Shown here piece by piece: positions 19,301 through 34,471 of a stretch of DNA of 34,726 nucleotides; the stretch's first letter is position 1, and each line of letters opens with the position of its first letter. A program made the position numbers and the translations under genes. Origin of the DNA: a virus; the IMG/VR virus record IMGVR_UViG_3300046808_000420, positions 1 through 34,726 of that record; one strand, given 5' to 3'. The notes beneath the pieces are model-generated. The model was given only the letters and a program-made list of their open reading frames with translations. It did not search any database and was not told the DNA's origin.

Positions 19301-22300
19301 CTTCAAAATTCCTGGTTCCAGTAGATTTGAGAATATTATTTTTGGAATCCCAGTATATTACTTTTCCAACGTTATTTGATGCCTTTATACTTTCGCCAAT
19401 TGAGAATTCCCCCTTCTTCAGAGTCCAGTTTAAAATTGGGAAATGATCCTCAAGAACAACCTTTCCATATGAAATTGTTGGGTTGAAGAATCCTGGGGTT
19501 TCAGACTCTGAAATATAATTTGTTAAATTATATGTAATTGAAGGATCAGATCCACCCAAATCAGGGTCAACCGCTGTGATTGTGAATAGTGCGTAGTTGT
19601 AATTTGCGGAATTGTATCCCAAACCAGTATTTGTGGTGATAATATTGCCATCTCTATCTTCTGTTGTGATTCCAACACTTGTATTTTCAATTAGAACTCT
19701 CTTACCAACAGCAAATGGGAATTGTGATGAGAGGCTATATGTTGATGCTAGAGAAACAACAACGTCTTTTGTTAGGGCATCATATGAAATTGTTCTAATT
19801 TTTGTTCCAATAATATTATCTACTGGGATAATCTGTGGTTCACCATATAATCTTGTTGTATTGTTAACAATATCTACTTTGGTGTTTCCAAGAGTATATT
19901 CGAGTTCAACTTCATCTAGGTGGAGTCCGGTCTTAGTATCAAGAACAACAAAATTTGGTGCCAGAGTATAATTTCTTCCTGCAGAAGATATTCCAACACT
20001 AGTGAAAGAATATGCTGTATTGACTCTTAATGTATTTGGAAGAACTGTTGTTGGTCTGAGTGAGAGGTCTGAGAGGTAATCATATCCAATATTGGATAGT
20101 GATGTTCTACGAAGAGAACCGATCCCATTACCAACAACGATCAAATTGGAATCAATACCTGAAGATTCGATTGAATCTATCTTTGGAAGTTTCTTGTAGT
20201 TCTTTCCTTCGGAATCAATTCTAATAGAAGCAATTGAACCAATACCAGTTGTGGCATTTGTTGTATATCTAATGAAAGAGGATGTTGATGTATATGTATT
20301 ACTCTCAGGACTTCTTTGGATATTAAAGTCAAAACTTGTTGTTGTGGGAGTGTCTTTAATAGCATATGTGCCATTATACAGACTGTTTACCACAGTAATG
20401 CTGTTATTACCAGCAACTTCAGTATCAATCTCTACGGGAATTTTTGTTAATGTGTTGTCTGTAATATCAATCGTTTCGAGAGAGTAGTAAATGGTCTTCG
20501 GAATTTCACTATTTAAAGTTAGAGTACATTTTGCGTTAATATCAACACCAACAGATCCAGAATACTCAACTTCAAATTCGGTTGTTGATTGAGTCGAATT
20601 AAACTCATTTCTGAGTTGATTGTCCCCGTATAGATTGAAGTCAAACGCACTTAACTGCGACAAACCAAGATAATATGCCAAAGATGAATCCGATAGGTCA
20701 AATTCAACTACGCTATTAGATGTTACTGTCAACGGTGGATTGATTGGGGACAGAGTTCCAATATCGGCAGATGTTATGTCTACCGCAATATTATTTGTGG
20801 AATTATAAATTGTATTTGCAAGTTTAATTTTATTGTTGGTTACTACAATCACATAATAGATTGTATCATCAGACAATCCTCCAGATGGTGATAGTGAATC
20901 ATGAATAACCTTCTGGGATGTAACAAATCCATGATTGGGAATAGTAATCTCATTTGTTACTGTATTAACATCAGTAGCAACGAAATCAATTGGATTTGTG
21001 ATCATTCTATTGTGTGTTGCGTTGTACTTAATAACAACGTTTGTTGTTACACCAGAGACAACAGAAAGATCAATTTTATCTCCAACATTCAATCCGTGAG
21101 TTTGTCCAGTTGAAACTGTAACAACTCTCTTAGTGATGGATCCCTCCAGAGAATTGTCATATCCAATAAAGAGGCTGTGATATACATCACTTCCAATACC
21201 AGTAAAGTATAGAAGACCAGATGCTGTTAGTCCTGTACCAACATAAGTACCAACAGAGTTTAATCCAACTCTTACAGTAGATAAACCAATCAAATCCTTA
21301 GATAATTTTGCAACATACAACTCTGTTCCACTAGTAAGAATTGATGTTGTAATACCTGGATCATGTCTAACTACAATTCCATCTCCACCATTTGTGGAGT
21401 AAACTACCTTGTCCCCAGTAACAAGACTGTGCCCAGGAAGATAAACAGTTCTGGTTGGAATTGTGATTTGAGTAATGCCAGCGCCAGGAGTTGAGAAGTA
21501 TAATGTTGAATTAATTCCAACGCCAGCGGTTGTTCCCAATCCAACAGTCTCTATTGGATTAAAATAATACTGCCTATGTAGATTTTGTGAGTATGATGTT
21601 GATATTCCAAATGTGACTCCAAACTTTCTACTTCTTTCTGTAAGTGCAAATCCAACCGGAAGAGAAGCAACACCAACTGTGCCATTTTGGTTGCGCAGAA
21701 CTCTAATTCTCTGTGAGAATGGATCCACATTTAGAATCTTAACTTGTTCCGCACCAAATTGATAAATATCATTCTCTCTAACTGTTGGATACTTCAAATT
21801 GCCCACAACATTCAGATAAGTCACTATCCCGGATACGGATGTAGTATCTGATTGTGAAGAAAGGAACAGACGATTCTCATTATATGAGATTGAGTCGAAT
21901 GTGGTAGATTCGCCTTCAATATCAATTTGAACCTCATCAAGATTTGTTAGATTATGAATGGTAGTTGAGAATCCAACATATGTGTATGGAACTCTACCTT
22001 CTGCCTTGATAAATTGAATATTATTGATAGTTGTGGATGATGTGCTTACTTGAGTTACATCCTTACCATATACCCTTTCAATATGGGCAGCTGCTCCAGA
22101 ACCACCACTATCACTCTCATCAAAGACTAGATTTTGGTTTGGAGAGTATCCACTTCCACCATCAATAATAGAAACCGAATCAATCTTTCCGGATCCAATA
22201 TACTCAACCTTTGCGAATGCTGATCTGATGATATCGAGCGATGGAATAAACTCATATTCGCTATTCTCTTCTAAAATATGATATGGAGTTGTATTTCTCA

Positions 22301-25300
22301 GTAGACGATTTTCATTAATATCAAAAGAATCTTGATTGCTTATCGAAACGTAGTTAAATTCAATTGGTTCTGAATGATATGTGTTTCCAATCACATACGG
22401 GAACTGTGGTTGTCTGTAGAATTTGAATGGCCCACTATTTGCAAGATTTCCAACAGTACAGAAATACGCATATGTTCCGTTTGGATATTCCGGAGTTACA
22501 CAGAATCTTCCATTATGATCATCTAAATCACCACTAGCAACGTAAGAATAATCTTCTACAAAAAATCCTTCTGGATATTGTGATGGTCTAACAACACTTG
22601 GCACTAAGGAATAACTAGACTCCATTCTCTTGATTGTACTTGGAGAAGATGGATTTGAATATCCATATGGACCGTAAATTGGGTTTCCGTCATATGCCCA
22701 TCCAACAATCGGAGAGTGGAAGGTTGAATTTTGCTCATATCCATTTGTTCCAACTGTAAGATCTGGAGTATATGTTAATTGTCCAGCAACAACAGACTCA
22801 GAAAGAACACTTCTTCGAAGAGATCTTGGGAGATATGCATGACAATATTGAAGACCATACTCTGAATTAAGTCCCGTGTCAAGGATTCCATCGTCATCAG
22901 TAATGTTTTGCTTTTGAATTAATCTCTGAACAACATTAATCGTCCAAGATTTAATTAAAGCTTGGAATTTTGCTCCAATACCTGTGGTTGAGACAGTAAT
23001 AGATGTGTCATTAGATTCATATCCGGCACCAGGATTGACGATGATTACACTAACAATCTGCCCATTTTCCACAACCGGAGTCAATAATGCCCCAGATCCA
23101 GAGATTGATTGAACTGTTAGTAGTGGATTTGTGTTATAATTCTTTCCTTTGTTTGCAATAATGACCTGAACAATTTGTCCGTTGGAAATAATTGGAGAAA
23201 TTTGTGCGTTTTGTCCAGACTGTACGTTAAATTCTGGTTGTCTGTTGTGATTAATAATATCTGCGGAACCATAATTCGATCCCTGATTTGTAACAAATAC
23301 GCCATTAACGGAACCTGAGAAGATTGGAACCAAAATTGCGTTAAAATCTTGTCCAGATTCTGTAGATACACCAATCCTACCCTTAATTGATAGTGAAATT
23401 GGTTCATAATTAAATGTATGTGTCCCAGATCCTGTTGATGTGATGTCAATATACTTCTTAGAAGTGTAGTAGAACTGCTTGGCAGTAACCCCAACACCAA
23501 CCTCAGACAACCTGAATTGAGAATCACTCAGTTTTGTAACGTAATATGTTTGATTAGAAGTTAATCCACCCACAGAGGTTCCTGTTGTGGTGTAGATCAA
23601 TATATCTCCACTTGAGTATCCATGTGAATCAATATTGAAAATATTTGCTGTTGTGTCAATATCTGCCGACACAAAATCGACCTGCCTTGTTTTATACCCA
23701 GAACCTGCGTTTGAGATTGAAATTGATCCAATCTTTTTCTTTTTCGTTGCTGCTTTTAGTTCTTGGATTCCATATCCATATGAACCCAACGAAATTGTAT
23801 TAATTCCAGCAGCTGCGTCAGCAATAGATTTGTGAAGTCTAATCTTCGTTCCATTATGACCGGATGGGAATGAGATGAAATATGTACCATTTGTAGTCAA
23901 TCCACTTATAATTTGTTGTTGCTGTGGATTGTAAATTACTCTATCACCATTTCTAAATCCATGATATGTGGAAAATCCGATAGTATTTGCAGACAAATCA
24001 ACACTAGATGTTGATTGGGAATTAAACTTAACAATATGATCAAAGTCAATCAGGTTGGCGATTGCTAATGCTCCACTTCCACCGCCACCAGTAATTTCAA
24101 TTACAGGATCTTCAACATAATCGAATCCTGGATTTTTAATATCAATTCTTTGTAGCGAACCATCAATTGACAGATGGCCTGTTGCTCCAACACCAATAGC
24201 ATCGCTGATAATTAGACTTGGTGGATTAATAATATCATATCCACTACCGGATGCTGTTGGAACAACCGATTGAATTGGACCATGATATACGAAATTTCTT
24301 GACTTATAGTTAAGAATTTCTACACCATTAATGAACATCCCAATTTGGCCAGATTTTGTTTCAATATCCGCTTCACCAAATGTTGGTGCTGAGAATCTTC
24401 GGATCAGTTTTTGCGATTCTAGGCTTTGCTTTTCAAGATTTCTAAATGAATAGGAAGTTAATTCAATTGTACTTTCATAACCCGAATTGATTGTTCCAGT
24501 GAAAGAAACATAAAAACTATCATCACCAGTAATATCAGCATTAAAGATATTGTCTCTTGACTTTGATAGACGAATTGATTTAGAGGAAATTACCTTTACA
24601 AAGTAAATCCCCTCCGGGGCAATAGAATTATCATCATCAAATGGTCTGTAGATTACAGAATCACCGGTATAGAATGAGTGATCGTTTGTAAAAACAAGAT
24701 CTTTTCCATTAAATGTTCCGGAGAATGATACTGATCTATCATCAATATCCAAATCTTGGCCATAATATGTTGGAATTGATGAAGATGTTACATAAATCTC
24801 ACTCTTATCAGTCTCACTACAGTATACATTCTGTACGTTGGTTGTATACTTTAATACACTAGAAAACCTTTCAGAATCCCTTACGGATGGTTTGAGTAGG
24901 TCCTTCTTAACATATAAGACAAGATTCTTATTTGGAATAACACTACCTTGAGTTACAAGGAATGTATTCTTATTTCTAATCTCAGATACTACTCCACCGG
25001 TAAAAACGTCTCCCGTTGAAGCAACAAAAGTTACTTTGTTTCCAATATAGAATGTATGCTGATCTTTTGTGGTTACAGTATAGATGTATGATGAACCTGA
25101 TGGATCAGATATTGATTCTATATCATAAATTGTTGGAATGTTGAAGAACCAATTGTTTGCCTTGGCACTTGTTAGGTCCTGCCCAAGAGTTTTGATGTAA
25201 ATTCTGTCCTCTTTGGACATTTCAACGGGGGTTTCTGATGGAAATTCTAGATCAGAGATTACACCATTAACTCTTAATTTGACTAATTCTCTCTCAATAC

Positions 25301-26486
25301 CGCCATATCCATAAACATATATTTCTTGATCTTCTACAGCATGTAGTTTAACTTCATATCCACTTTCAAATGAATCATCAATACCGGTACATCCATAGAA
25401 TTGTGTGGATGATTTTGAAGTATAGTCAATATAAAGAACTGTTCCATTCTCAAGATCAACTCTAAGTGTTCCCTCAGATGGGAATGATACTGTGGAATCA
25501 ACGTCTAGTGTTTCTGTACCAACAGTTACGTCGGTTGTATTCTTTGTTTTGGGGTGAACTGTAAACTTACCAGCAATAGTACCGCTGGTGAGGTTGATAT
25601 CCCTGTTATAGTCGGAGTCGAGACTTAGAACATAAAACTCCCTATCTCCCCTCAGGATCCTCTCTACGGACGTTACAGCACCACTTGCTCTAAAGAGGAA
25701 GTCAGAGGTTTCATCTTGGTATATGGTGGCATTAACGAGTTTCTCAGGGTCTCCGGAGACTGCTTCTACAACTAGGTCGTTTGTAATTCTGTACTCAGCA
25801 TCCGATGGCTCAATCAAGAAATCTCTGGGGCGAATCAGTTCAACGTTCTTGCCATACAAAGCACCAAAAAGAATCTTGAAAGATGTTTCAGTTCCCTTTG
25901 ACGAATAGAAATCCTTGGTGCGTGATAGGAAGATCTCCTCATTTAGACCTTCATAAAACTCTCTCTTTGTAAAACCGGGTGCAATAAGTGCCTTAACCTT
26001 AGTCAGAAATTCCTTTAGGAATAAAACACTAAGATTTTTTACTTCTGCTCCAGAAGTGTGTGTAGATGCTTCTGTCTCAGAAAATACTAATTGATCTGGA
26101 ACACTGGATTGCAGAGACGAAACACCACTAAAACCACGTGTGCATCCATAGAAATGATCACTCTCTTTGCCCTCATAGAGAATGATTTCATCATCAATTA
26201 GAATCAGTCCATGACGTTGGACAAATCCACCTGTGTTAGAAACGTAAATTATATCACCCGAAATAGTTAAATCGGATGAAAGTGTTGTACTCTCAACAAT
26301 ATTTGATACCGCATCCAAAGACACATACTTATCAATATTATGGAGAAGATCTAATGGTCCTCCAGAATATTCATTCGATATGTAATACTGTCTGAGGAAT
26401 TCCTCAGCGTATGGAAATTCTGCCTTAATAAAGTCAGGAAGTTGACTTTCAAGGATGGAGCTTATCTTAACTCTAGTATCGTTCAT
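13389..26486 (-). CDS. 7: Giant gp7-like baseplate wedge/adhesin protein (4365 aa)
   Basis: Probable wedge initiator fused to a huge adhesin-like extension. Residues about 175-220 (EEIFLSRTKDFYSSKGTETS, then FKILFGALYGKNVEL) match the C-terminal part of T4 gp7 (1032 aa) from memory, and the position between gp6 and gp8 agrees. The remaining 4000 residues are mostly beta-type repeats. These include 15 or so GxGY modules, several D/N-E-I-I / RG modules, and a YHYH-like domain (about 1255-1345, with GWAYDGNPIYGPYG and HNGRFCVTPEYPNGTYAYF). There are also a tandem pair of about 85 residues (2720-2930) and fibre-type modules with VFLNNVLQVPG (about 3590-3690). The C-terminal jelly-roll-like domain (about 4170-4325, ENLITYSEFEQSW to VVWGAQVESG) resembles carbohydrate-binding domains at phage fibre ends. 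Wedge attachment by the N-terminus and host-surface contact by the C-terminus is inferred. Confidence 0.85.
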   Translation of the reverse strand: MNDTRVKISSILESQLPDFIKAEFPYAEEFLRQYYISNEYSGGPLDLLHNIDKYVSLDAVSNIVESTTLSSDLTISGDIIYVSNTGGFVQRHGLILIDDEIILYEGKESDHFYGCTRGFSGVSSLQSSVPDQLVFSETEASTHTSGAEVKNLSVLFLKEFLTKVKALIAPGFTKREFYEGLNEEIFLSRTKDFYSSKGTETSFKILFGALYGKNVELIRPRDFLIEPSDAEYRITNDLVVEAVSGDPEKLVNATIYQDETSDFLFRASGAVTSVERILRGDREFYVLSLDSDYNRDINLTSGTIAGKFTVHPKTKNTTDVTVGTETLDVDSTVSFPSEGTLRVDLENGTVLYIDYTSKSSTQFYGCTGIDDSFESGYEVKLHAVEDQEIYVYGYGGIERELVKLRVNGVISDLEFPSETPVEMSKEDRIYIKTLGQDLTSAKANNWFFNIPTIYDIESISDPSGSSYIYTVTTKDQHTFYIGNKVTFVASTGDVFTGGVVSEIRNKNTFLVTQGSVIPNKNLVLYVKKDLLKPSVRDSERFSSVLKYTTNVQNVYCSETDKSEIYVTSSSIPTYYGQDLDIDDRSVSFSGTFNGKDLVFTNDHSFYTGDSVIYRPFDDDNSIAPEGIYFVKVISSKSIRLSKSRDNIFNADITGDDSFYVSFTGTINSGYESTIELTSYSFRNLEKQSLESQKLIRRFSAPTFGEADIETKSGQIGMFINGVEILNYKSRNFVYHGPIQSVVPTASGSGYDIINPPSLIISDAIGVGATGHLSIDGSLQRIDIKNPGFDYVEDPVIEITGGGGSGALAIANLIDFDHIVKFNSQSTSSVDLSANTIGFSTYHGFRNGDRVIYNPQQQQIISGLTTNGTYFISFPSGHNGTKIRLHKSIADAAAGINTISLGSYGYGIQELKAATKKKKIGSISISNAGSGYKTRQVDFVSADIDTTANIFNIDSHGYSSGDILIYTTTGTSVGGLTSNQTYYVTKLSDSQFRLSEVGVGVTAKQFYYTSKKYIDITSTGSGTHTFNYEPISLSIKGRIGVSTESGQDFNAILVPIFSGSVNGVFVTNQGSNYGSADIINHNRQPEFNVQSGQNAQISPIISNGQIVQVIIANKGKNYNTNPLLTVQSISGSGALLTPVVENGQIVSVIIVNPGAGYESNDTSITVSTTGIGAKFQALIKSWTINVVQRLIQKQNITDDDGILDTGLNSEYGLQYCHAYLPRSLRRSVLSESVVAGQLTYTPDLTVGTNGYEQNSTFHSPIVGWAYDGNPIYGPYGYSNPSSPSTIKRMESSYSLVPSVVRPSQYPEGFFVEDYSYVASGDLDDHNGRFCVTPEYPNGTYAYFCTVGNLANSGPFKFYRQPQFPYVIGNTYHSEPIEFNYVSISNQDSFDINENRLLRNTTPYHILEENSEYEFIPSLDIIRSAFAKVEYIGSGKIDSVSIIDGGSGYSPNQNLVFDESDSGGSGAAAHIERVYGKDVTQVSTSSTTINNIQFIKAEGRVPYTYVGFSTTIHNLTNLDEVQIDIEGESTTFDSISYNENRLFLSSQSDTTSVSGIVTYLNVVGNLKYPTVRENDIYQFGAEQVKILNVDPFSQRIRVLRNQNGTVGVASLPVGFALTERSRKFGVTFGISTSYSQNLHRQYYFNPIETVGLGTTAGVGINSTLYFSTPGAGITQITIPTRTVYLPGHSLVTGDKVVYSTNGGDGIVVRHDPGITTSILTSGTELYVAKLSKDLIGLSTVRVGLNSVGTYVGTGLTASGLLYFTGIGSDVYHSLFIGYDNSLEGSITKRVVTVSTGQTHGLNVGDKIDLSVVSGVTTNVVIKYNATHNRMITNPIDFVATDVNTVTNEITIPNHGFVTSQKVIHDSLSPSGGLSDDTIYYVIVVTNNKIKLANTIYNSTNNIAVDITSADIGTLSPINPPLTVTSNSVVEFDLSDSSLAYYLGLSQLSAFDFNLYGDNQLRNEFNSTQSTTEFEVEYSGSVGVDINAKCTLTLNSEIPKTIYYSLETIDITDNTLTKIPVEIDTEVAGNNSITVVNSLYNGTYAIKDTPTTTSFDFNIQRSPESNTYTSTSSFIRYTTNATTGIGSIASIRIDSEGKNYKKLPKIDSIESSGIDSNLIVVGNGIGSLRRTSLSNIGYDYLSDLSLRPTTVLPNTLRVNTAYSFTSVGISSAGRNYTLAPNFVVLDTKTGLHLDEVELEYTLGNTKVDIVNNTTRLYGEPQIIPVDNIIGTKIRTISYDALTKDVVVSLASTYSLSSQFPFAVGKRVLIENTSVGITTEDRDGNIITTNTGLGYNSANYNYALFTITAVDPDLGGSDPSITYNLTNYISESETPGFFNPTISYGKVVLEDHFPILNWTLKKGEFSIGESIKASNNVGKVIYWDSKNNILKSTGTRNFEVGETIVSTVSGLESVIQDVRSYDSNFNIDASSTVTKGWNRNTGFLNDSLQRIHDSDYYQYFSYALKSEIELDKWDDAVSNLNHTAGFKKFSDLVVESSLGLNVSSGIDTTQDFGDVSILADLASVVDTNTVYDFDLATETVLNFDGTLKSDQILFNTRIIQDYVEAVGNRVLIIDDISDEFTVAAGIQNYGVADQYSAATTIKKYALWVGDRSQNYGNQRQVQLATILQYNGTGFINQFGKVWSFEDLGDYDFRFVDSQAELLFYPIKSELNDYEMSGLSFSLTDSTTSTNYFGLGCLDIRSTTTTISSGTGAGTTSTVVGIASTYRAAKYHIAISNAANTYHEYTEVSVLHNDTDISVLEYNKLTTSNDPAFSGLGTFTANLSATGLDLWFSPYVTTTEDYDFNVDVVSISATNTGTGATFFPGAAVVSSYTSIASTTADTKIAEYTEVYGGAYFIVAIHDTTNNEHQLSEVLLTTDDTDAQILEFAPMYTNSGLGTISAGITTSTELTFVPAPGINVDVRVMQFSLGAVRSGIPENIINLGSVGSVDFANGTFQGTELARRKDFDLYQDGYPIFEKIVDPSEVISLTNSTLFLPNHFFVSGEEVVYDTGLGGQPIGIATTTITGIGLTDKLPSTFYVIKIDDTIFQVAGSVEDALVNDYLTLTGVGVGTEHVITSTGQNSKCIVTLDNVIQSPIVSTAVTTSLDVGVGVAEEVLTFAGITSFFAGDFVKVNNEIIVIRSVGYLGANNDVLVRRAQLGSAVGSHSVGSVIRKIYGDYNIVGNTINFAETPYGNLQLSGSRSDEQDYFGLDVRSSFSGRVFLRSGIPGGTEEPYSTNIVFDDLSATFNGITSQFSLKSNEIDVTGFSTSNAIVLLNSVFQSPQNIDYKLTEVSGITSITFTGDTNASNYDVNNTSLPRGGSIVSVATSEGFGYQARVSAGATATVSGLGTISSLSIGNTGGGYRGSSEYEILAVVDHPVGVGTTVIYLANTEAVRNKLAYSTTNRISVGTALTNVSIVSVGNTFITVGVGSGPSSAISAGTYAHVELLSPTAGLVNISVAQTDINNREFIGFTTIVAGRISPNYVITNPGSGYTNTNEPVVIIDDPLPYTNIPLEYSSESAVAGIGTETLIEIVVGSGSSVISFEILNAGYAYGNGEILTVPIGGLTGIPTDVTKPFREFQVTIEAIQADDFVGWSIGDLQVLDSIDSLFNNVNVTFPLSFNGERTSIRARTGSNVREDALLLVFLNNVLQVPGEAYEFDGGSTLTFSFPPRFGDRCSIIFYRGTSSIDTVDVEVLDTIKVGDKVTLNDSDILYQEDPRLVTDVVATDAVTTNIYFGAGINPDETYVRPLSWTRQTEDIILDGEEIGKDRELYEANIFPTTVAIKDFTASSTEIFVDNVRTFFDHDREYTAVLEGDQDDIFVHDNKNVVAAAATCTVSVGGSITAVTITNGGVGYSEDVTHTISFGISSGITSTSRATGTVGVTTSGSVTTLSITNAGDGYSVAAIEAISVLSNGTGWTNTGSEYTFSNVRLKNKTGSGTNALVDITIINGDVDRVEITGSGYGYQVNDYLYVDVVNFEGTNVVLSTPLQLLVTSIAAPPVLINEPTVAKELMSVTYEGDFGIISGIGTTSYTGVTTGLVFDFVIPKNSFLRDTYVSGTVGVATTGVSGIQTGYYFMISNSNVGDKVISLESDNTPIGIGTTFLNNIFKAEAVSIAQTHAIGLGLTWVARVTTKVNDYTDFIGLGHSNFFGEYSWGRLYNLQRVGGSAFGAYRGENLITYSEFEQSWTETGTITVSYIQDSPFTQTYGAKIATAAADTGLTIATVSLVSGTNYTYSIYVKPISGSKKIYFGSNTGTTASVSLDFDASIPTITNRSGTTTNETLIPQENGWYRASFTFNAGASAAHNFIVYNTTSDNTFVVWGAQVESGVDLTPYSKVTHTPVYRNTAVTDENTYPVIRRFNNLRYRGYVI

Positions 26487-26489
26487 TGC

Positions 26490-28394
26490 TTATAATCTTA
26501 CGAGAGCACCGTTTGCGTAGCTTGAGGTAATTTGATATGTTGTTCCGGAAATATCCGATCCAGAACTAATAGGATCTGCCATCATAGTGACAGAAGTATT
26601 ATTAATATCTAGTTGCAAATATAAGTCCTGTAATCCGATCACATCGTTGGATTTTGGTGTAGTCGAAATCTGGACAATTGAATCTGCAGAATCAAATTTT
26701 GCAGTCTCAATAATATTTAACGGATACAAAAGAATCTCACCTTTCTCATAATCAACTGATCCAGCACTACTTCTAACTATGGTTGCCGAAGAACCTTCTA
26801 GTTTGAAGAATACGATCTTTCCCGTCTTAAGATCAGCGTTTGGAATATCAGTCAAGTATATAAAACTTGACACACCACTTACCTTAAACCCAGAAGACTT
26901 AATATTGTATCCATTAACATTCTTTACATGGAATGCATTACCATAACAGATTTCATAATCAGCATATTTACCTAGAGCAACTCTAAGGTCTCTTCTCATA
27001 GCAACTGTAGTGATGTTTGATGTTACTGAAGCATCACTATCATCAACAATCTTGAGAAACTTGGAATACTTAAATCTTGCACCATAACGATTCAGGTCCG
27101 AAGAATCTGCGTATCTCTGAATGTTGTTGACAATCTTAGTACGAACATCATTTGCACCCAAACTTGTGTTGGTGTTGTAATATGCAGTAGTGTCAAGTTC
27201 AACATAGATGTACTTCAGGTCAAGAATTTCTGGAACAATACCTGCAACAGAATACTTTCTAAGTGTTCTCTTCAGATTATCCTTAATCGAAGATGGAACA
27301 TATGAACCATTAATAGGTTTGATTGTAATGAAGACTTTTCCAAATTGTGGTGGATCCAGATCTTCTCCACCAAATACAGAGATTGATTCTGTTTCTGGGA
27401 AGATGGTTGGAATAATGGATTCGTAATCAGTTGCCGTTACTGCTCTGTTGTGTGCTTCATAGATCTTGGGAGCATACTTACGAATGGATTCTGTGCTTTC
27501 AATATCAGTACCGAATCTAGAAACAGTATCTGTGGTAAGATTTGAAATGCCACCAGAAATGACAGTATCGTTATTGTCTACCAGTCTTCCATTAAATGTA
27601 AATCCTGCAACACCATTTCCATCAGGACCGTTTGACAGGTGATATGTAATTACAATTGTGCTAGTGTTTTCTAATTTATAACCAAAGATGCCATCACCAA
27701 AGATAATTTCATATCTTTCATCACCAATTTCCTGAAGGAAATAAACTCTGGAATCTGGTCTAACATCAATCAGATTGTTTGAAAGTCTATAATTAACACC
27801 AACGTTTGAACCAGGAGCAAAGACAGTTACACGAATAAGTGATGTATCAACACCAGCGTTGTCTAGAAGAAATCTTTGATTTGGATCATTTTCATCTACA
27901 GTATACTCTGCAGTTACATATGATCCCTCATAGACATAAACGTTGGAGAAAGATGCCACTCCGTTGACCACAGGAACCGTCACATCATCCTGAATGGCAA
28001 AGGTATAACTCTGATTGCCGAAACGGGCATTAGAGGTGCATACAAGACCCTTTCTGAGGGTAATTGTGTTGGGATCGTTGGAGTATCCTGTTGTATCTAC
28101 AGTAAAGGATATTGCTGCTCTCGCTGCTCTTCTTGACCTTGGAAGATAACCAATTTGCTTTGCAAGGGAAACTACATTCTCCCTTAGAGTTGCACTATCA
28201 ATAAACACCTCATTACTCAACATATTGGCGTTATATGATGAGATATAGGTGTTATACGAAAGAACATCTATAATCGTTGACAGATTCGATCCTTCAAAAT
28301 CATAGTCGGAAAAGTCCGAATTTGATCTTAAATACTCTATGATTTGGGATTTAATCTGGTCAAAGTCCAGATTGGTGAAATTTACTAAGGCCAT
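26490..28394 (-). CDS. 6: Baseplate wedge protein gp6
   Basis: gp6 forms the continuous ring of the baseplate inner wedge; in T4 it interlocks with gp25, gp7 and gp53. The 634 residues (T4: 660) begin MALVNFTNLDFDQIKSQIIE and contain NTYISSYNANMLSNEVFIDS and LAKQIGYLPRSRRAARA (about residues 48-88), the baseplate-J/gp6 signature. The C-terminal half (about 295-420) has the RKYAPKIYEAHNRAVTATDY type of segment typical of the J family. The ATG overlaps the gp25 stop (TAATG), indicating coupled translation, and the giant gp7-like gene begins 4 nt after its stop. Confidence 0.93.
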   Translation of the reverse strand: MALVNFTNLDFDQIKSQIIEYLRSNSDFSDYDFEGSNLSTIIDVLSYNTYISSYNANMLSNEVFIDSATLRENVVSLAKQIGYLPRSRRAARAAISFTVDTTGYSNDPNTITLRKGLVCTSNARFGNQSYTFAIQDDVTVPVVNGVASFSNVYVYEGSYVTAEYTVDENDPNQRFLLDNAGVDTSLIRVTVFAPGSNVGVNYRLSNNLIDVRPDSRVYFLQEIGDERYEIIFGDGIFGYKLENTSTIVITYHLSNGPDGNGVAGFTFNGRLVDNNDTVISGGISNLTTDTVSRFGTDIESTESIRKYAPKIYEAHNRAVTATDYESIIPTIFPETESISVFGGEDLDPPQFGKVFITIKPINGSYVPSSIKDNLKRTLRKYSVAGIVPEILDLKYIYVELDTTAYYNTNTSLGANDVRTKIVNNIQRYADSSDLNRYGARFKYSKFLKIVDDSDASVTSNITTVAMRRDLRVALGKYADYEICYGNAFHVKNVNGYNIKSSGFKVSGVSSFIYLTDIPNADLKTGKIVFFKLEGSSATIVRSSAGSVDYEKGEILLYPLNIIETAKFDSADSIVQISTTPKSNDVIGLQDLYLQLDINNTSVTMMADPISSGSDISGTTYQITSSYANGALVRL

Positions 28395-28795
28395 TATCGT
28401 GTTGGCTGTAGTGCAAAGGTTAACTGTTGTGCCGGAACGTCAATTCCAACTATTTCATATACGATTGTAACGTCAAACTGATTATTATCGTAGTCAGGAA
28501 CTACTATAACTTCGTCTAATTTAACTCTTGGTTCGTAGGTATTGATTGTATCTTCAATTTCCTGCTGAATATACGCTGCAGTCATCTCATCCATGTTCTC
28601 AAATAGTGCAGCACTCACTCTGGAACCTAGACCTTCATTAAAAAACCGCTCTCCGGGAAGAGTAAGCACAAGATTTCTGACAGAACGTGCAATTGCACTC
28701 TCATTTTTGAGTCCAATCAAGTCGTGATTGACCGGATTGGACAAAAATGACATGCTTAAATCTTTAAATCGCTTACTAACCCTTTGAACCGGCAT
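28394..28795 (-). CDS. 25: Baseplate wedge protein gp25
   Basis: Small wedge protein of the GPW/gp25 family (133 residues, T4: 132) that nucleates sheath assembly at the baseplate. The core RSVRNLVLTLPGERFFNEGL, followed by GSRVSAALFENMDEMT, carries the conserved PGER and G-S-x-V-x-x-x-L-F pattern. It is the first gene of the late structural run and is translationally coupled to gp6. A GATAAATA motif 22 nt before the ATG is a plausible late promoter for the whole run. No strong ribosome site is visible. Confidence 0.95.
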   Translation of the reverse strand: MPVQRVSKRFKDLSMSFLSNPVNHDLIGLKNESAIARSVRNLVLTLPGERFFNEGLGSRVSAALFENMDEMTAAYIQQEIEDTINTYEPRVKLDEVIVVPDYDNNQFDVTIVYEIVGIDVPAQQLTFALQPTR

Positions 28796-31028: not shown

Positions 31029-31205
31029 TCAGCGGTTGAAAGTGTTGAACAGAATGTCAGCAATCTCATCCATGGTGAGTGACACATCCGAAGAAATCTT
31101 CTTTGATTGTGCCGACAGGATTGCACCTTTGCACTGTGCCTCAATCTCCTTCAGGGAGAACTTAGAGGGAGTGTTGAGAGCGTTACGACGGGTCATTCCG
31201 GTCAT
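31029..31205 (-). CDS. Small hypothetical protein (58 aa)
   Basis: Begins MTGMTRRNALNTPSKFSLKE; basic N-terminus, acidic C-terminus (TMDEIADILFNTFNR). It is the first gene of a four-gene unit, and its start lies 45 nt from the -10 box of cassette A. A second ATG three codons in is equally possible, and neither has a clear ribosome site. Function unknown. Confidence 0.6.
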   Translation of the reverse strand: MTGMTRRNALNTPSKFSLKEIEAQCKGAILSAQSKKISSDVSLTMDEIADILFNTFNR

Positions 31206-31249: not shown

Positions 31250-31287
31250 AGTATAGGGTCAGGGGAGTCGTTGGAAGGTTTTTCAGC
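31250..31287 (-). promoter_or_regulatory. Promoter/stem-loop cassette A
   Basis: Box GCTGAAAA (31280-31287), 24-nt spacer, -10 TATACT (31250-31255). Here an 8-bp inverted repeat CCCCTGAC/GTCAGGGG encloses the -10 box in its loop. It begins 10 nt after the stop of the 65-residue gene and heads the four-gene unit ending at 30449. Confidence 0.72.
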
Positions 31288-31296
31288 AGATCTGCT

Positions 31297-31494
31297 TCAC
31301 GCAGGAATGATGTTGTATTCGATGGACTTAATGCACCAACCTGTATTGTTGGTGATGCAATCTACCAATTCATCTTCACTCTCCGGAGTCCACAGACAGG
31401 AAGTTACACTCTCTACAATCTCTTGCTTTTCATCATCTGTGAGATCTTCATAATCAAAATCAAAGTCGATTGATGTCACTTCGTAATAGTTCAT
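31297..31494 (-). CDS. Small acidic protein (65 aa)
   Basis: Begins MNYYEVTSIDFDFDYEDLTD and contains SEDELVDCITNNTGWCIKSI. Very acidic, with two Cys in the C-terminal half. I recall similar short proteins in cyanophage accessory regions, without an assigned function. Strong acidity could fit a DNA-mimic or inhibitor role, which is a guess. It is the third gene of the cassette-B unit, starting 3 nt after the previous stop. Confidence 0.7.
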   Translation of the reverse strand: MNYYEVTSIDFDFDYEDLTDDEKQEIVESVTSCLWTPESEDELVDCITNNTGWCIKSIEYNIIPA

Positions 31495-31497
31495 GAT

Positions 31498-31662
31498 TCA
31501 GTCAACGACAGAGTACCAAGCAACGGATCCAGGAATACCACTCAACCAGAGAGAATCATTCCGGGAATCGCAATAGTCTTGTGCTTCATCTTCGGTAGAA
31601 AAAGGTCCGATGTATTCGGGGGATTCCAGATACTCGGACCAGAAGCAAACGGTATAGGTCAT
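31498..31662 (-). CDS. Small hypothetical protein (54 aa)
   Basis: Begins MTYTVCFWSEYLESPEYIGP and contains FSTEDEAQDYCDSRN, a short beta-alpha pattern seen in many tiny phage proteins. The open frame extends upstream to 31734, but that would overlap the preceding gene. The ATG at 31662 has GAGG at good spacing and lies 2 nt after the upstream stop. Function unknown. Confidence 0.65.
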   Translation of the reverse strand: MTYTVCFWSEYLESPEYIGPFSTEDEAQDYCDSRNDSLWLSGIPGSVAWYSVVD

Positions 31663-31664
31663 GA

Positions 31665-31988
31665 TCAGAACCTCATGCCAGAAAAGAAAGGAACAGTGGT
31701 CAAACCTTGAACGGAGTTTAACTGAACGAACCACTTACCTGCCTTTTGAAAGACACGATCGCCAGTCTCACCGTTGCCAGAAAGAATAGCGTTCAGGCGG
31801 GATTTGGTCGTTGCAGACTGATATCCACCGTCAAAGAGTTCGATCCAGGTTTCACCAATCCGGGCAATCTGATTGCCATGGAGAAAGACATCAGAAACGT
31901 GAGAACAGCAGATGACTTCAGTGTTGTCACACTTCCAATCGCGACCTGCTTTGATCGCGGCATTCATTTGGGATTCGATCTTACGCAT
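31665..31988 (-). CDS. Conserved phage hypothetical protein (107 aa)
   Basis: Begins MRKIESQMNAAIKAGRDWKC. The central part has VFLHGNQIARIGETWIELFD followed by GGYQSATTKSRLNAIL, and the C-terminus has VFQKAGKWFVQL. This pattern (a name-less family of about 100 residues starting MRxIExQM) is common in cyanophages and other phages or plasmids, with no known role. It is the first gene of the cassette-B unit, with an unusually long leader of 58 nt from the -10 box and no clear ribosome site. Confidence 0.78.
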   Translation of the reverse strand: MRKIESQMNAAIKAGRDWKCDNTEVICCSHVSDVFLHGNQIARIGETWIELFDGGYQSATTKSRLNAILSGNGETGDRVFQKAGKWFVQLNSVQGLTTVPFFSGMRF

Positions 31989-32045
31989 GGTTCGGGAAGC
32001 GAAGGGTTGAAGGTGGGAGGGAGGTCTCTCCCCCCTGGTATCTTC

Positions 32046-32083
32046 ATCATACCCTGCCGGAGGTCTCTGGCGGGTTTTTCAGC
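32046..32083 (-). promoter_or_regulatory. Promoter/stem-loop cassette B
   Basis: Box GCTGAAAA (32076-32083), 24-nt spacer containing a GCC/GGC-based dyad, -10 TATGAT (32046-32051). The leader GATGAAGATACCAGGGGGGA is nearly identical to cassette F. On the plus strand the dyad followed by GGGTTTTTC looks terminator-like. It drives the three-gene unit 31988-31297. Confidence 0.78.
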
Positions 32084-32097
32084 ACTTGTGCAGCAGA

Positions 32098-32481
32098 TCA
32101 GAATGCGATCTCCCATCCATGGCGGGCGCTGCACTTGGCATAAGGTGGCGTCACACCGATGATAAGTGCTTCCTTGGCAAGTTTCACAACTTTATCAACA
32201 GGAATTGTGGACTCGCTGCAGTATTCTTCCCAACCATTAGGAGTTACAACTGCGAAACCTTTTGCGGTGTCACTGTAACGCATAATGTCATCTTCAGTGA
32301 AAGTAACTGCGGTTCCATCATAATTCACTCCATGAGCAATCTTACCATCTTTGATGATAATCATGTCAGGATGATGACCATGAGTTGTGTAATACGTTCC
32401 ATCAGGAACTTTTACGGTTTGAGCACAGGCAGTGAGCATCAAACTCATGAGTGCTAGAGTAGCGGTGAAGAGTTTGGTCAT
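32098..32481 (-). CDS. Small predicted lipoprotein
   Basis: The 127 residues begin with a classic bacterial lipoprotein signal: MTK, a hydrophobic stretch (LFTATLALMSLM) and the lipobox L-T-A-C with Cys at residue 19. It should be lipidated and tethered to a host membrane. The mature part (VPDGTYYTTHGHHPDMIIIK and onward) is a small beta-rich domain I do not recognise, with three further Cys. The start at 32481 has AAAGGAG 7 nt upstream. A longer frame from 32523 would destroy the signal peptide and run over the promoter, so it is rejected. It is the only gene of the cassette-C unit. Superinfection exclusion is one possible role (inference). Confidence 0.75.
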   Translation of the reverse strand: MTKLFTATLALMSLMLTACAQTVKVPDGTYYTTHGHHPDMIIIKDGKIAHGVNYDGTAVTFTEDDIMRYSDTAKGFAVVTPNGWEEYCSESTIPVDKVVKLAKEALIIGVTPPYAKCSARHGWEIAF

Positions 32482-32509
32482 GGGTTGGCTCCTTTGCCTC
32501 TCTGATATC

Positions 32510-32547
32510 AGTGTATCCCCCACCAGAGCAATGGCAGGGGTTTCAGC
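32510..32547 (-). promoter_or_regulatory. Promoter/stem-loop cassette C
   Basis: Box GCTGAAAC (32540-32547), 24-nt spacer, -10 TACACT (32510-32515). The spacer folds as CCCC, a 2-nt internal loop, then CCA, paired to TGG and GGGG. The box begins 9 nt after the stop of the 50-residue gene. It drives the lipoprotein gene, which starts 29 nt from the -10 box. Confidence 0.7.
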
Positions 32548-32556
32548 GTATCTGCA

Positions 32557-32709
32557 TCAAACTGCACGAAGGTGCTTCCGGGTGTCAAATCCCTTAGCGT
32601 GCTCTTCCTTGCGCAGTTTAGCAGCAAGTTCAGCAAGTGAAATAGGTTGTGAGTTCTCAACCATCACCAGCAGATGAGACTTCAGATCACAAGCAAGTTG
32701 GTAGGACAT
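32557..32709 (-). CDS. Small hypothetical protein (50 aa)
   Basis: Begins MSYQLACDLKSHLLVMVENS and ends in a basic helix (LRKEEHAKGFDTRKHLRAV). No domain recognised. It is the last gene of the cassette-D unit; its ATG nearly touches the preceding stop (TGAAATG). Start and frame are supported by packing only. Confidence 0.6.
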   Translation of the reverse strand: MSYQLACDLKSHLLVMVENSQPISLAELAAKLRKEEHAKGFDTRKHLRAV

Positions 32710-32710
32710 T

Positions 32711-32830
32711 TCAGTTAGCAAGAACGTGACAGGAATTCAGTGAACCATACACATTGAAGGCATAATAGTATCCTTCAACTTTAGTGAAAAAGCAGCAAAC
32801 GGGATAACCGTTATGATAAAGAGTGAACAT
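32711..32830 (-). CDS. Very small hypothetical protein (39 aa)
   Basis: Begins MFTLYHNGYPVCCFFTKVEG and contains a YYY run. It looks like a short beta-hairpin protein. It lies between two tightly packed genes: the previous stop is 3 nt upstream and the next start 1 nt downstream. That makes it probably real, though it is too short to classify. Confidence 0.55.
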   Translation of the reverse strand: MFTLYHNGYPVCCFFTKVEGYYYAFNVYGSLNSCHVLAN

Positions 32831-32833
32831 GAT

Positions 32834-33013
32834 TTACATTCCGTTGAGAAAGTCAGCAAGTGCCTCATCATACTCTTCTTGAGAGTTGTAGACACGACCA
32901 TGAATGTTGAGAGGGAAAGTCTTTTTGAGACCAGCAACTGCCACCGTCTGACAGTCTGCCTCATCGTATCCCATCTCCATCAGGGTCTGCACGTAAGGGT
33001 TGCGGTGGGTCAT
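32834..33013 (-). CDS. Small hypothetical protein (59 aa), UBA-like pattern
   Basis: Begins MTHRNPYVQTLMEMGYDEAD and continues CQTVAVAGLKKTFPL; the C-terminus is acidic and helical (NSQEEYDEALADFLNGM). LMEMGYDEADCQTVAVAG loosely resembles a UBA-type three-helix pattern, but this is weak. The ATG at 33013 follows AAGGAAAGAGACCTC and lies 25 nt from the -10 box of cassette D. The longer frame to 33145 crosses the promoter and a terminator and is rejected. Confidence 0.68.
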   Translation of the reverse strand: MTHRNPYVQTLMEMGYDEADCQTVAVAGLKKTFPLNIHGRVYNSQEEYDEALADFLNGM

Positions 33014-33037
33014 GAGGTCTCTTTCCTTGGTATCTTC

Positions 33038-33076
33038 ATAATACCCCCCTGGCACCCCCATGGCAAGGTTTTCAGC
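33038..33076 (-). promoter_or_regulatory. Promoter/stem-loop cassette D
   Basis: Box GCTGAAAA (33069-33076), 25-nt G-rich spacer with a weak dyad, -10 TATTAT (33038-33043), then GAAGATACC. Upstream of the box it shares about 30 nt with cassette F, with one difference. Unlike the other copies, a terminator rather than a gene stop precedes it. Confidence 0.74.
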
Positions 33077-33102
33077 GGTTCTGCAGCATATCTTCACAAT
33101 AT

Positions 33103-33131
33103 AAAAAAACCTGGGGCACCACCCCCAGGTT
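33103..33131 (-). terminator. Strong intrinsic terminator
   Basis: On the minus strand a perfect 9-bp stem AACCTGGGG/CCCCAGGTT with a 6-nt loop is followed by a T-run. It lies about 95 nt after the CyAbrB-ArdA gene and just before cassette D, so it separates those two units. Confidence 0.9.
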
Positions 33132-33224
33132 CGATAACCCAACACTCACCTAATCGATACAATTATCTCCACTCTACTTGGGTGACTTTTCTTATAGCAG
33201 CGGCAAACCCTTTCCGCTCTTCAA

Positions 33225-33695
33225 TTAAAAGTTACGATCGAACACGTAACCATCTTGGAAGTCGAAATCGTAGCGAAGATTTGCATCCCAGGTTGCTTGC
33301 CAATCGACAACAACGTAGGAAGGAATATCACCATGAATTTCGGTGGTGAACTCTTCAGCAAAGTCTGCCTCAGAATCATATGCACCACGATAGGCATCTT
33401 CAAACGAATCCAGATAGTCTTCTCCGTGAAGTTCGATGAATGCATCAACAGCATTCACGTGATACTCATCAGTCAGACGATCATAGAGAGACTGATTCTC
33501 TTCGCTCACAACGGGTTCATCATCGGGCAGATTCAGACCCTTTGCTTCAAGCAAAGCAGTGTAGAAGTCAGTATATTGACCTTTGCCATTCTCTTTCACG
33601 TAACCACATGCTACCACAACTTGAGTGGCAGTCTTACCCTCTGCCCGAAGGGCATCAACGCGGGCGATGAGATCGGGTCCAGTGAGACGGGTCAT
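33225..33695 (-). CDS. CyAbrB-ArdA fusion, probable anti-restriction protein
   Basis: The 156 residues appear to join two domains. Residues 4-55 (LTGPDLIARVDAL, then VVVACGYV and FYTALLEAKGLNL) match the cyanobacterial AbrB-like (CyAbrB) DNA-binding domain, whose family pattern is LTGxxLxxxVxxL...CGY...F..ALLEAKG. After an acidic linker, residues 78-156 (FIELHGEDYLDSFEDAYRG, then YDSEADFAEEF, IPSYVVVDWQATW and VFDRNF) match the C-terminal part of ArdA, a DNA mimic that blocks type I restriction enzymes. ArdA is usually about 165-170 residues, so its N-terminal domain is replaced here. The start has GAGGA 8 nt upstream, 25 nt from the -10 box of cassette E. A strong terminator follows. Confidence 0.72.
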   Translation of the reverse strand: MTRLTGPDLIARVDALRAEGKTATQVVVACGYVKENGKGQYTDFYTALLEAKGLNLPDDEPVVSEENQSLYDRLTDEYHVNAVDAFIELHGEDYLDSFEDAYRGAYDSEADFAEEFTTEIHGDIPSYVVVDWQATWDANLRYDFDFQDGYVFDRNF

Positions 33696-33719
33696 GAGTG
33701 GGTCCTCTTGAGTAATTTC

Positions 33720-33758
33720 ATCATATCCCCCAGGAAGGGGGTTGGAAGGGTTTTCAGC
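33720..33758 (-). promoter_or_regulatory. Promoter/stem-loop cassette E
   Basis: Box GCTGAAAA (33751-33758), 25-nt spacer with a perfect CCCCC/GGGGG stem and 5-nt loop, -10 TATGAT (33720-33725). The leader GATGAAATTACTCAAGAGG is shared with cassette G. The start codon of the CyAbrB-ArdA gene lies 25 nt from the -10 box. Confidence 0.8.
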
Positions 33759-33777
33759 GAATGTGATGCAGATGTGT

Positions 33778-33966
33778 TTACCAGAGTTCGTAGGGTTCAG
33801 AGTAATATTCGATCACGTCTTGAAATTCAGCAAAGCGATTTAACGCTTTTGCTTTCATTCCAGGATCCATGAAATCATAATAGAACCCCAGAGCACACTT
33901 CGAACGGGTTTCAGGTTGGGCAAGAACACGATCACGCTCTGCCTGGACTTCTTGGATTGTACGCAT
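33778..33966 (-). CDS. Small hypothetical protein (62 aa)
   Basis: Begins MRTIQEVQAERDRVLAQPET and contains LGFYYDFMDPGMKAKALNRF; helical, with no domain recognised. The open frame reaches 34053 but would then start inside the cassette-F promoter region, so the ATG at 33966 is used. No ribosome site precedes it, and a non-ATG start further upstream cannot be excluded. Function unknown. Confidence 0.6.
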   Translation of the reverse strand: MRTIQEVQAERDRVLAQPETRSKCALGFYYDFMDPGMKAKALNRFAEFQDVIEYYSEPYELW

Positions 33967-34048
33967 GATCGATTTAGCAATTGGGTTGGGGTGAGCAGAC
34001 CACAACTCTGCTCTTGGGGGGTCCTCCTTCCTCCCCCCTGGTATCTTC

Positions 34049-34086
34049 ATCATATCCCCTCAGGGGACCTTGACGGGTTTTTCAGC
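34049..34086 (-). promoter_or_regulatory. Promoter/stem-loop cassette F
   Basis: Box GCTGAAAA (34079-34086), 24-nt spacer with a TCCCC/GGGGA stem and TGA loop, -10 TATGAT (34049-34054), then GATGAAGATACCAGGGGGGA. It begins about 17 nt after the stop of the 101-residue gene. The leader to the 62-residue gene is long (83 nt). Confidence 0.8.
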
Positions 34087-34103
34087 GATTCTGCAGCATA
34101 TCT

Positions 34104-34409
34104 TCACACTCCGTAGATCTTCACACTTTGATCGACAAAGAACGCTTCAAATTCATGCTCTTGCACGTGATCTTTGCAGTAACCTACACTCCAATCCGAA
34201 GTCTTACCTTCGAGTGCAACTTCATCTTCAATATGCCAGAAATCTTTATCATAAGAGATCAGCACTTGATAAAAGTAACGACCGGAATCCAGAATGTCGT
34301 TGAATGCAATACGTGCTTCGAATTCATCAGCATAATCAAACTGATCATTCCAGACACTATCATCAACTGCAAGGAATCCTGCGCCAACGATCACGAAACG
34401 CTCAGACAT
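34104..34409 (-). CDS. Acidic hypothetical protein (101 aa)
   Basis: Begins MSERFVIVGAGFLAVDDSVW and is rich in Asp, Glu and aromatic residues, with an internal FDYADEFEARIAFNDILDSG helix and YFYQVLISYDKDFWHIEDE strands. VIVGAGF superficially resembles a nucleotide-binding GxGxxG loop, but it lacks the third Gly and the protein is too short for a Rossmann enzyme. The ATG at 34409 lies 25 nt from the -10 box of cassette G; the open frame to 34445 runs into the promoter. Strong acidity would fit a small inhibitor or DNA mimic, which is a guess. Confidence 0.7.
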   Translation of the reverse strand: MSERFVIVGAGFLAVDDSVWNDQFDYADEFEARIAFNDILDSGRYFYQVLISYDKDFWHIEDEVALEGKTSDWSVGYCKDHVQEHEFEAFFVDQSVKIYGV

Positions 34410-34433
34410 GGTGTGGGTCTCTTGAGTAATTTC

Positions 34434-34471
34434 ATCATACGGCACCAGATGCCCCTAGAAGGGTTTTCAGC
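34434..34471 (-). promoter_or_regulatory. Promoter/stem-loop cassette G
   Basis: Box GCTGAAAA (34464-34471), 24-nt spacer with two short hairpins (CCCT/AGGG and GGCA/TGCC), -10 TATGAT (34434-34439), leader GATGAAATTACTCAAGAG as in cassette E. It begins 3 nt after the stop of the partial gene at the window end. Confidence 0.78.

Follow-up and report, generated by a model that had tools for sequence, protein, structure and literature searches.

The stretch of viral DNA considered here, IMG/VR record IMGVR_UViG_3300046808_000420 (34,726 nucleotides (nt), analysed in full and referred to as the window), belongs to a T4-type cyanophage of the Kyanoviridae and carries seven intergenic copies of one cassette on its minus strand, placed stop-to-start between accessory genes. 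These cassettes are probably early promoters resembling the promoter-early stem-loop (PeSL) elements of T4-type phages, and would double as joints at which accessory genes recombine. The copies have the form GCASATST-GCTGAAAA (GCTGAAAC being the box of one copy), a spacer of 24 or 25 nt and TAnnnT. An original prediction, made from the sequence of the window, had listed seven such copies, each close behind an upstream stop or terminator and each heading its own accessory unit, and all of this was borne out (Table 1). The spacer is 24 nt long in 5/7 copies and 25 nt in 2/7 (those with boxes starting at 33758 and 33076). Stops lie 6-22 nt before the boxes, the exception being copy 33076, which is preceded instead by an intrinsic terminator, and a downstream open reading frame (ORF) was assigned to 7/7.

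The exact pattern GCTGAAAA-N20-28-TATGAT, with 14 fixed letters, matches the window four times, as against none in 100 shuffled sequences. A relaxed pattern gives six matches on the minus strand, none on the plus strand and none for the reversed control. The scan of other genomes proposed in the original prediction was also run, and a strict pattern retrieved four other IMG/VR contigs along with one chance match. The carriers are G004/L137 (near-identical to the window), G005 (24 kb), G002 and G003 (154 kb); the window and these closest relatives are metagenomic contigs. Ten copies were found in G003, all on a single strand (none for the reversed-pattern control), and every one of the eight occurrences of GCTGAAAAMCC in its 154 kb falls in a cassette. 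The copies are intergenic and strand-specific. The cassette was found in no GTDB genome with the strict pattern, and a consensus BLAST against 50,697 phage records returned short chance matches only. A looser pattern had matched at least 120 stretches of viral contigs, nearly all of them once, and the stricter one was adopted. Extra matches in L204–L208 were judged to be chance; each is single and has neither the CC-rich start of the spacer nor the upstream box.

A consensus was drawn from 20 distinct copies (23 in total), in which the letters of the box and of the -10 were required by the search and their invariance is not independent evidence. In order, it consists of TGMTGCASATSTGCTGAAAA, MCCYKCCA, the hairpin and TAnnnTGAAGATACC. 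The GCAGA-like element noticed earlier in front of the box is real and is better written as TGMTGCASATSTGCTGAAAA, and conservation extends downstream, beyond what was then described, as TATGATGAAGATACC. Over the 23 copies the spacer measures 24 nt in 19, 25 nt in three and 23 nt in one, and varies in sequence among the copies. A fixed length with a free sequence would point to a promoter-spacer requirement, unlike the outcome of mere copying. Reckoned from the -10 position, the box spans about -52 to -37 and is the most conserved segment upstream of the -10, which itself varies only in its middle bases (T1, A2 and T6 were imposed by the search). All copies are intergenic, with a stop at -6 to -23 or inside the box and an ATG mostly 21-28 nt past the -10. 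The TGA of the upstream element is often the stop of the preceding gene, its first base lying exactly 12 nt before the box in 9/23 copies.

The core of the cassette may be sigma70-like, with a clear -10 in all copies and a degenerate -35 at 16-17 nt. In the window family the -35-like hexamer is YYKCCA, and copy 33076 reads TTGCCA-17-TATTAT. Scored against TTGACA, the window family does best at a distance of 16 nt (mean 2.35 of 6) and the freshwater relatives at one of 17 nt (2.45). The earlier statement that no TTGACA-like -35 is present was therefore too strong, and the strict class II placement suggested for an activator at the box is weakened by the same hexamer and by the end of the box at about -37. 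Because a TTGACA-like peak exists at 16 or 17 nt, the box is an addition to a weak -35 and not a clean replacement of it.

Most spacers fold. The mean folding energy is -10.2 kcal/mol compared with -7.6 for dinucleotide shuffles (Fisher combined p 7e-5 over the 20 distinct copies, with partly orthologous copies counted as independent), and 17/20 fold at -6.6 kcal/mol or better. The earlier view that structure rather than sequence is conserved thus has statistical support, with an exception at copy 31287, in which, by inspection, CCCCTGAC/GTCAGGGG arms straddle the -10 in place of a spacer hairpin. The three distinct copies with little or no hairpin share one corresponding position (window 31287, G003 L190:8034 and G002 172). 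A T-run giving sense terminator geometry occurs in only 1/20 distinct copies, and a role of the hairpin as sense-strand terminator was rejected on sequence grounds. The terminator that had been proposed on the plus strand fared better in part. Antisense terminator geometry is present in 9/20 distinct copies, but a single window copy (cassette 6) passes a strict scan. Since relatives keep the hairpin without a T-run, the antisense T-run is probably a by-product of AAAA in the box, and antisense termination is disfavoured as the main role. Rfam gave no match at the gathering score for the window and three relatives. As a separate observation, units with long leaders carry a second inverted repeat, G/C-rich and of the GGGGGG..CCCCCC type, close to where the mRNA 5' end is expected, seen by inspection at window copies 34086, 32083 and 31287 and at G003 copies L190:10319, 9740 and 8034; it may form an mRNA-stabilizing hairpin.

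Comparison of the window with its relatives locates gene gain or loss in the cassettes. On either side of a gap the alignment between the window and G005 runs at about 92%, and at the gap the G005 cassette L191:7414 equals window copy 34086 through GCAGAATC and copy 33076 from GCTGAAAAC onward. Because the match switches copy between these two segments, the joint of the hybrid is placed in CGCTGAAAA; the two genes between the copies (about 1 kb, one of them ArdA-like) are absent from G005, and the comparison fits a loss as well as a gain. In G003, homologous units occur in a different order from that of the window. Between two isolates of the cyanomyovirus ACG-2014f, 18/54 alignment ends, not mutually independent, fall in cassettes of a related type, compared with 8–9% for random positions.

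From these sequence features we infer promoter activity, early timing, a factor bound at the box and a role for the hairpin. Host RNA polymerase would read the cassette as an early promoter, so that each small accessory unit would be transcribed separately from its own copy. The parts of such a promoter would be the TGMTGCASATSTGCTGAAAA box ending at about -37, a 24/25-nt spacer that covers the degenerate -35 and usually holds a G/C-rich hairpin, a sigma70-type -10 (TAnnnT) and, behind it, a leader some 25 nt long whose end carries the ribosome-binding site and ATG. Homologous recombination between copies could then delete, insert or reorder units, and expression would remain unbroken because the copies share box, -10 and leader. 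Several points weigh against this reading, namely the weak -35, the partial orthology behind the hairpin statistic, the 3/20 distinct copies with little or no hairpin, the undirected G005 event and the interdependence of the ACG-2014f alignment ends. The near-absence of sense T-runs also counts here, PeSLs being described as promoter-terminator motifs.

PeSL cassettes have reportedly been described in RB49/phi1 and other T4-type phages (by Arbiol in 2010 and Comeau in 2014, it is said). Intergenic sequences of RB49 include TTGACAGGGGATCGGTGATCCCCTATACT as well as variants whose -10 is spanned by the hairpin; in others the hairpin lies between TTGAC and the -10. Both systems have a repeated intergenic promoter of sigma70 type (a putative one in the window), the core elements of which flank a G/C hairpin or are crossed by it, lie in hyperplastic regions with small novel ORFs, and move genes by recombination between copies, which in the cassettes described here is indicated by the G005 hybrid and the G003 reordering. 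The analogy drawn in the original prediction thus stands, with hairpins at the same place in RB49 and a cassette-to-cassette recombinant at hand. In the sequences examined, however, the RB49 PeSL combines a good TTGACA, placed at 17 nt, with the lack of a common upstream box, whereas the window cassette has a degenerate -35, a strongly conserved 16-20-nt upstream box and a hairpin that by its sequence is not a sense terminator. It would work like a PeSL to which a phage-specific upstream box has been added. Since its sequence lacks the terminator feature and its -35 is degenerate, the window cassette is called PeSL-like only, a putative new variant rather than a full member. Beyond the RB49 sequence itself, the PeSL features compared here are those of general background and of the short descriptions in PMC4503421 and PMC3950731.

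A sister cassette was reached in relatives identified by way of the ArdA-like protein of the window. It consists of the dyad TGTGnCAGT-nn-ACTGGCACA, about 30 nt and TAnnnT (TATACT/TACATT), and is likewise repeated and intergenic in ACG-2014f, S-CRM01, S-SRM01, S-PM2, Syn9 and P-SSM2. Searched on both strands, TGGCACA-N28-31-TANNNT gives match and reversed counts, some of the matches being chance, of 34/0 in ACG-2014f, 19/0 in P-SSM2, 15/0 in S-CRM01, 11/0 in S-PM2, 11/0 in S-SRM01, 10/0 in Syn9 and 0/0 in RB49. The hairpins clearly exceed shuffles (p 1.6e-15; for ACG-2014f only, 0.005). Both types follow the order stop, box, hairpin, -10, leader and ATG, with a fixed spacer length, a variable spacer sequence and breakpoints inside cassettes, and both are located before gp25/gp6, ACG-2014f having its own cluster of the sister type at the matching position immediately upstream of gp25–gp6. 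The sister type differs in its box, in a spacer of 30 rather than 24, in a -35 (TTGGCA/TAGGCA) that occupies the loop of the hairpin, at 17 nt, and in the sense T-run of some copies.

The sister dyad has no match in the window, and G003 bears both types (two clear sister cassettes and ten GCTGAAAA cassettes). An ArdA-like ORF stands behind a GTG-type sister cassette in L139 and behind a GCTGAAAA cassette in the window; the same kind of gene is thus found behind different cassette types. Dozens of intergenic dyad cassettes are present in L194 (KJ019045, 1302-22236), in S-CRM01, S-PM2, Syn9, P-SSM2 and S-SRM01, and in G006-G010. The dyad cassette is apparently a widespread cyanomyovirus promoter type, of which no published description was found in the literature searched. 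In the S-PM2 'ORFanage' study (PMC4503421), which likewise concerns an accessory ORFan cluster of a cyanomyovirus, few PeSLs are reported and these are judged too sparse to explain shuffling, in contrast to the sister-type count of 11 versus 0 reversed; a stem-loop listed there at 11369–11391 falls within a sister-cassette match at 11364–11405. Repeated promoter cassettes ahead of many ORFs are also described (PMC3950731, PMC8707807) for the conserved motif of the haloarchaeal virus HGTV-1 (a TATA-like box with an inverted repeat, likened to PeSLs) and the HF2 intergenic repeats; these are archaeal promoters, compared here by description.

Other explanations can be set against PeSL-like early promoters. 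The cassettes could possibly be activator-dependent delayed-early promoters, although this appears somewhat improbable. The GCASATSTGCTGAAAA box, or the sister dyad TGTGnCAGT..ACTGGCACA, would be the site of an activator, encoded by the phage or carried in the virion, that stands in for a good -35. Consistent with this, nothing upstream of the -10 is better conserved than the box, which keeps its distance although the intervening sequence is free, the -35 of the window family is weak, and in ACG-2014f most copies have the end of the sister dyad at a distance of exactly 30 nt from the -10. The perfect dyad is also absent from picocyanobacterial genomes, its GTDB matches being 14 scattered contigs of unrelated taxa. 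However, no candidate activator was found (none was sought), and cyanomyoviruses lack motA/asiA (PMC2984593). Moreover, ACG-2014f has a good -35, with a TTGACA match that peaks at 17 nt (3.93 of 6, compared with 1.34 shuffled), and still has the dyad, which therefore is no simple -35 substitute. A broader proposal, held only tentatively and rather unlikely in its full form, is that cyanomyoviruses share, family-wide, one kind of accessory-gene promoter, with a phage-specific factor reading its upstream box. Lineages would have changed from one box 'alphabet' to another (at least two, GCTGAAAA and the GTG dyad) and traded the genes behind the box on a retained hairpin-promoter chassis, and box identity would limit the gene pools that can recombine.

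It is unlikely that the hairpin acts mainly as a terminator, either for antisense transcripts (stem and TTTTTC on the plus strand) or, PeSL-style, for read-through from upstream. The terminator-like antisense copies would fit such a role, as would the sense T-runs of some sister-type hairpins (in ACG-2014f, and G003 125451 and 134830). Against this, sense T-runs are all but missing from the window family, many hairpins of the freshwater relatives have no T-run on either side, and the true sense terminator of the window is a separate element upstream of its cassette. Still more doubtful is a recombination hotspot at the DNA level, in which gp46/47 or a resolvase of the T4 endonuclease VII type would cleave cruciform arms and make the cassette an active rather than a passive joint. 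Hairpins are retained despite sequence variation and breakpoints concentrate in cassettes, but the G005 junction lies in CGCTGAAAA, outside the hairpin, and plain homologous recombination between repeated boxes suffices. Finally, a compositional artefact, that is, a common octamer near AT-rich stretches ahead of start codons, has next to no probability. GCTGAAAA alone does occur six times in the window against a shuffle mean of 1.4, yet box and -10 together are absent from shuffles and reversed controls and recur, strand-specific and intergenic, in the four other contigs; a chance origin is refuted by the G003 copies.

Putative PeSL-like promoters of this kind bear on the question of how host-interaction genes are gained and lost in T4-type cyanophages, as they provide a dense, sequence-defined cassette in the window lineage and, in many cyanomyoviruses, a counterpart with a different box; junctions of gene gain and loss lie inside. 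The cassette may serve as a searchable signature of modular gene exchange, as an aid in delimiting accessory units and correcting start codons, and as a set of promoters for testing against existing cyanophage transcriptomes.

The window cassettes are confined to an accessory cluster adjoining the baseplate genes gp25/gp6, and the ORFs around them are mostly small and of unknown function, the hyperplastic setting typical of PeSLs. The ArdA-like antirestriction protein behind cassette 3 belongs to a type of gene required early after entry.

Table 1. Cassettes and neighbouring features of the window. Copies are named by the position at which the box starts on the minus strand.
Feature	Position	Strand	Description
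Cassette 1 (copy 34471)	34434..34471	-	Box GCTGAAAA 34464-34471; 24-nt spacer, GGCA/TGCC hairpin; -10 TATGAT 34434-34439; heads unit 34104-34409
Cassette 2 (copy 34086)	34049..34086	-	Box 34079-34086; 24-nt spacer, TCCCC/GGGGA hairpin; -10 TATGAT; heads 33778-33966 (phrog_15469); upstream half retained in G005 hybrid cassette
Cassette 3 (copy 33758)	33720..33758	-	Box 33751-33758; 25-nt spacer, CCCCC/GGGGG hairpin; -10 TATGAT; heads ArdA-like antirestriction gene
ArdA-like antirestriction protein, 156 aa	33225–33695	-	PHROG 36653, E 2.9e-16; Pfam ArdA slightly under cut-off
Intrinsic terminator	33107..33132	-	10-bp stem then T-run; sense strand, directly upstream of cassette 4
Cassette 4 (copy 33076)	33038..33076	-	Box 33069-33076; 25-nt spacer; TTGCCA at 17 nt; -10 TATTAT; heads 32834-33013 (phrog_649); downstream half retained in G005 hybrid cassette
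Cassette 5 (copy 32547)	32510..32547	-	Box GCTGAAAC 32540-32547; 24-nt spacer; 9-bp stem, -15.6 kcal/mol; -10 TACACT; heads lipoprotein-like ORF 32098-32481
Cassette 6 (copy 32083)	32046..32083	-	Box 32076-32083; 24-nt spacer; -10 TATGAT; heads Gp96 gene; terminator-like score on plus strand at 32053-32074
Kyanoviridae Gp96	31665–31988	-	Behind cassette 6
Cassette 7 (copy 31287)	31250..31287	-	Box 31280-31287; 24-nt spacer without own hairpin; -10 TATACT; heads 31029-31205
Baseplate wedge protein genes	28394–28795 and 26490–28394		

Repeat-rich long intergenic stretches with many short repeats lie beside the cassette cluster, in L140 (8700-10560) and L145 (5170-16390) with CTCGTCGAG and CTCGTCGAGAT repeats, and at about 12777 in L190 and about 8629 in L191 with repeats of the CTAGAT type. 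Two ORFs of exceptional length, 4365 and 2595 aa, are found on the minus strand of the window at 13389–26486 and 4005–11792, among tail and baseplate genes. The mechanical ORF starts at 34053, 33145 and 34445 fall within or upstream of cassettes (for example, at the ATG inside TATGATG), and the true starts are likely to be 33966, 33013 and 34409, respectively.

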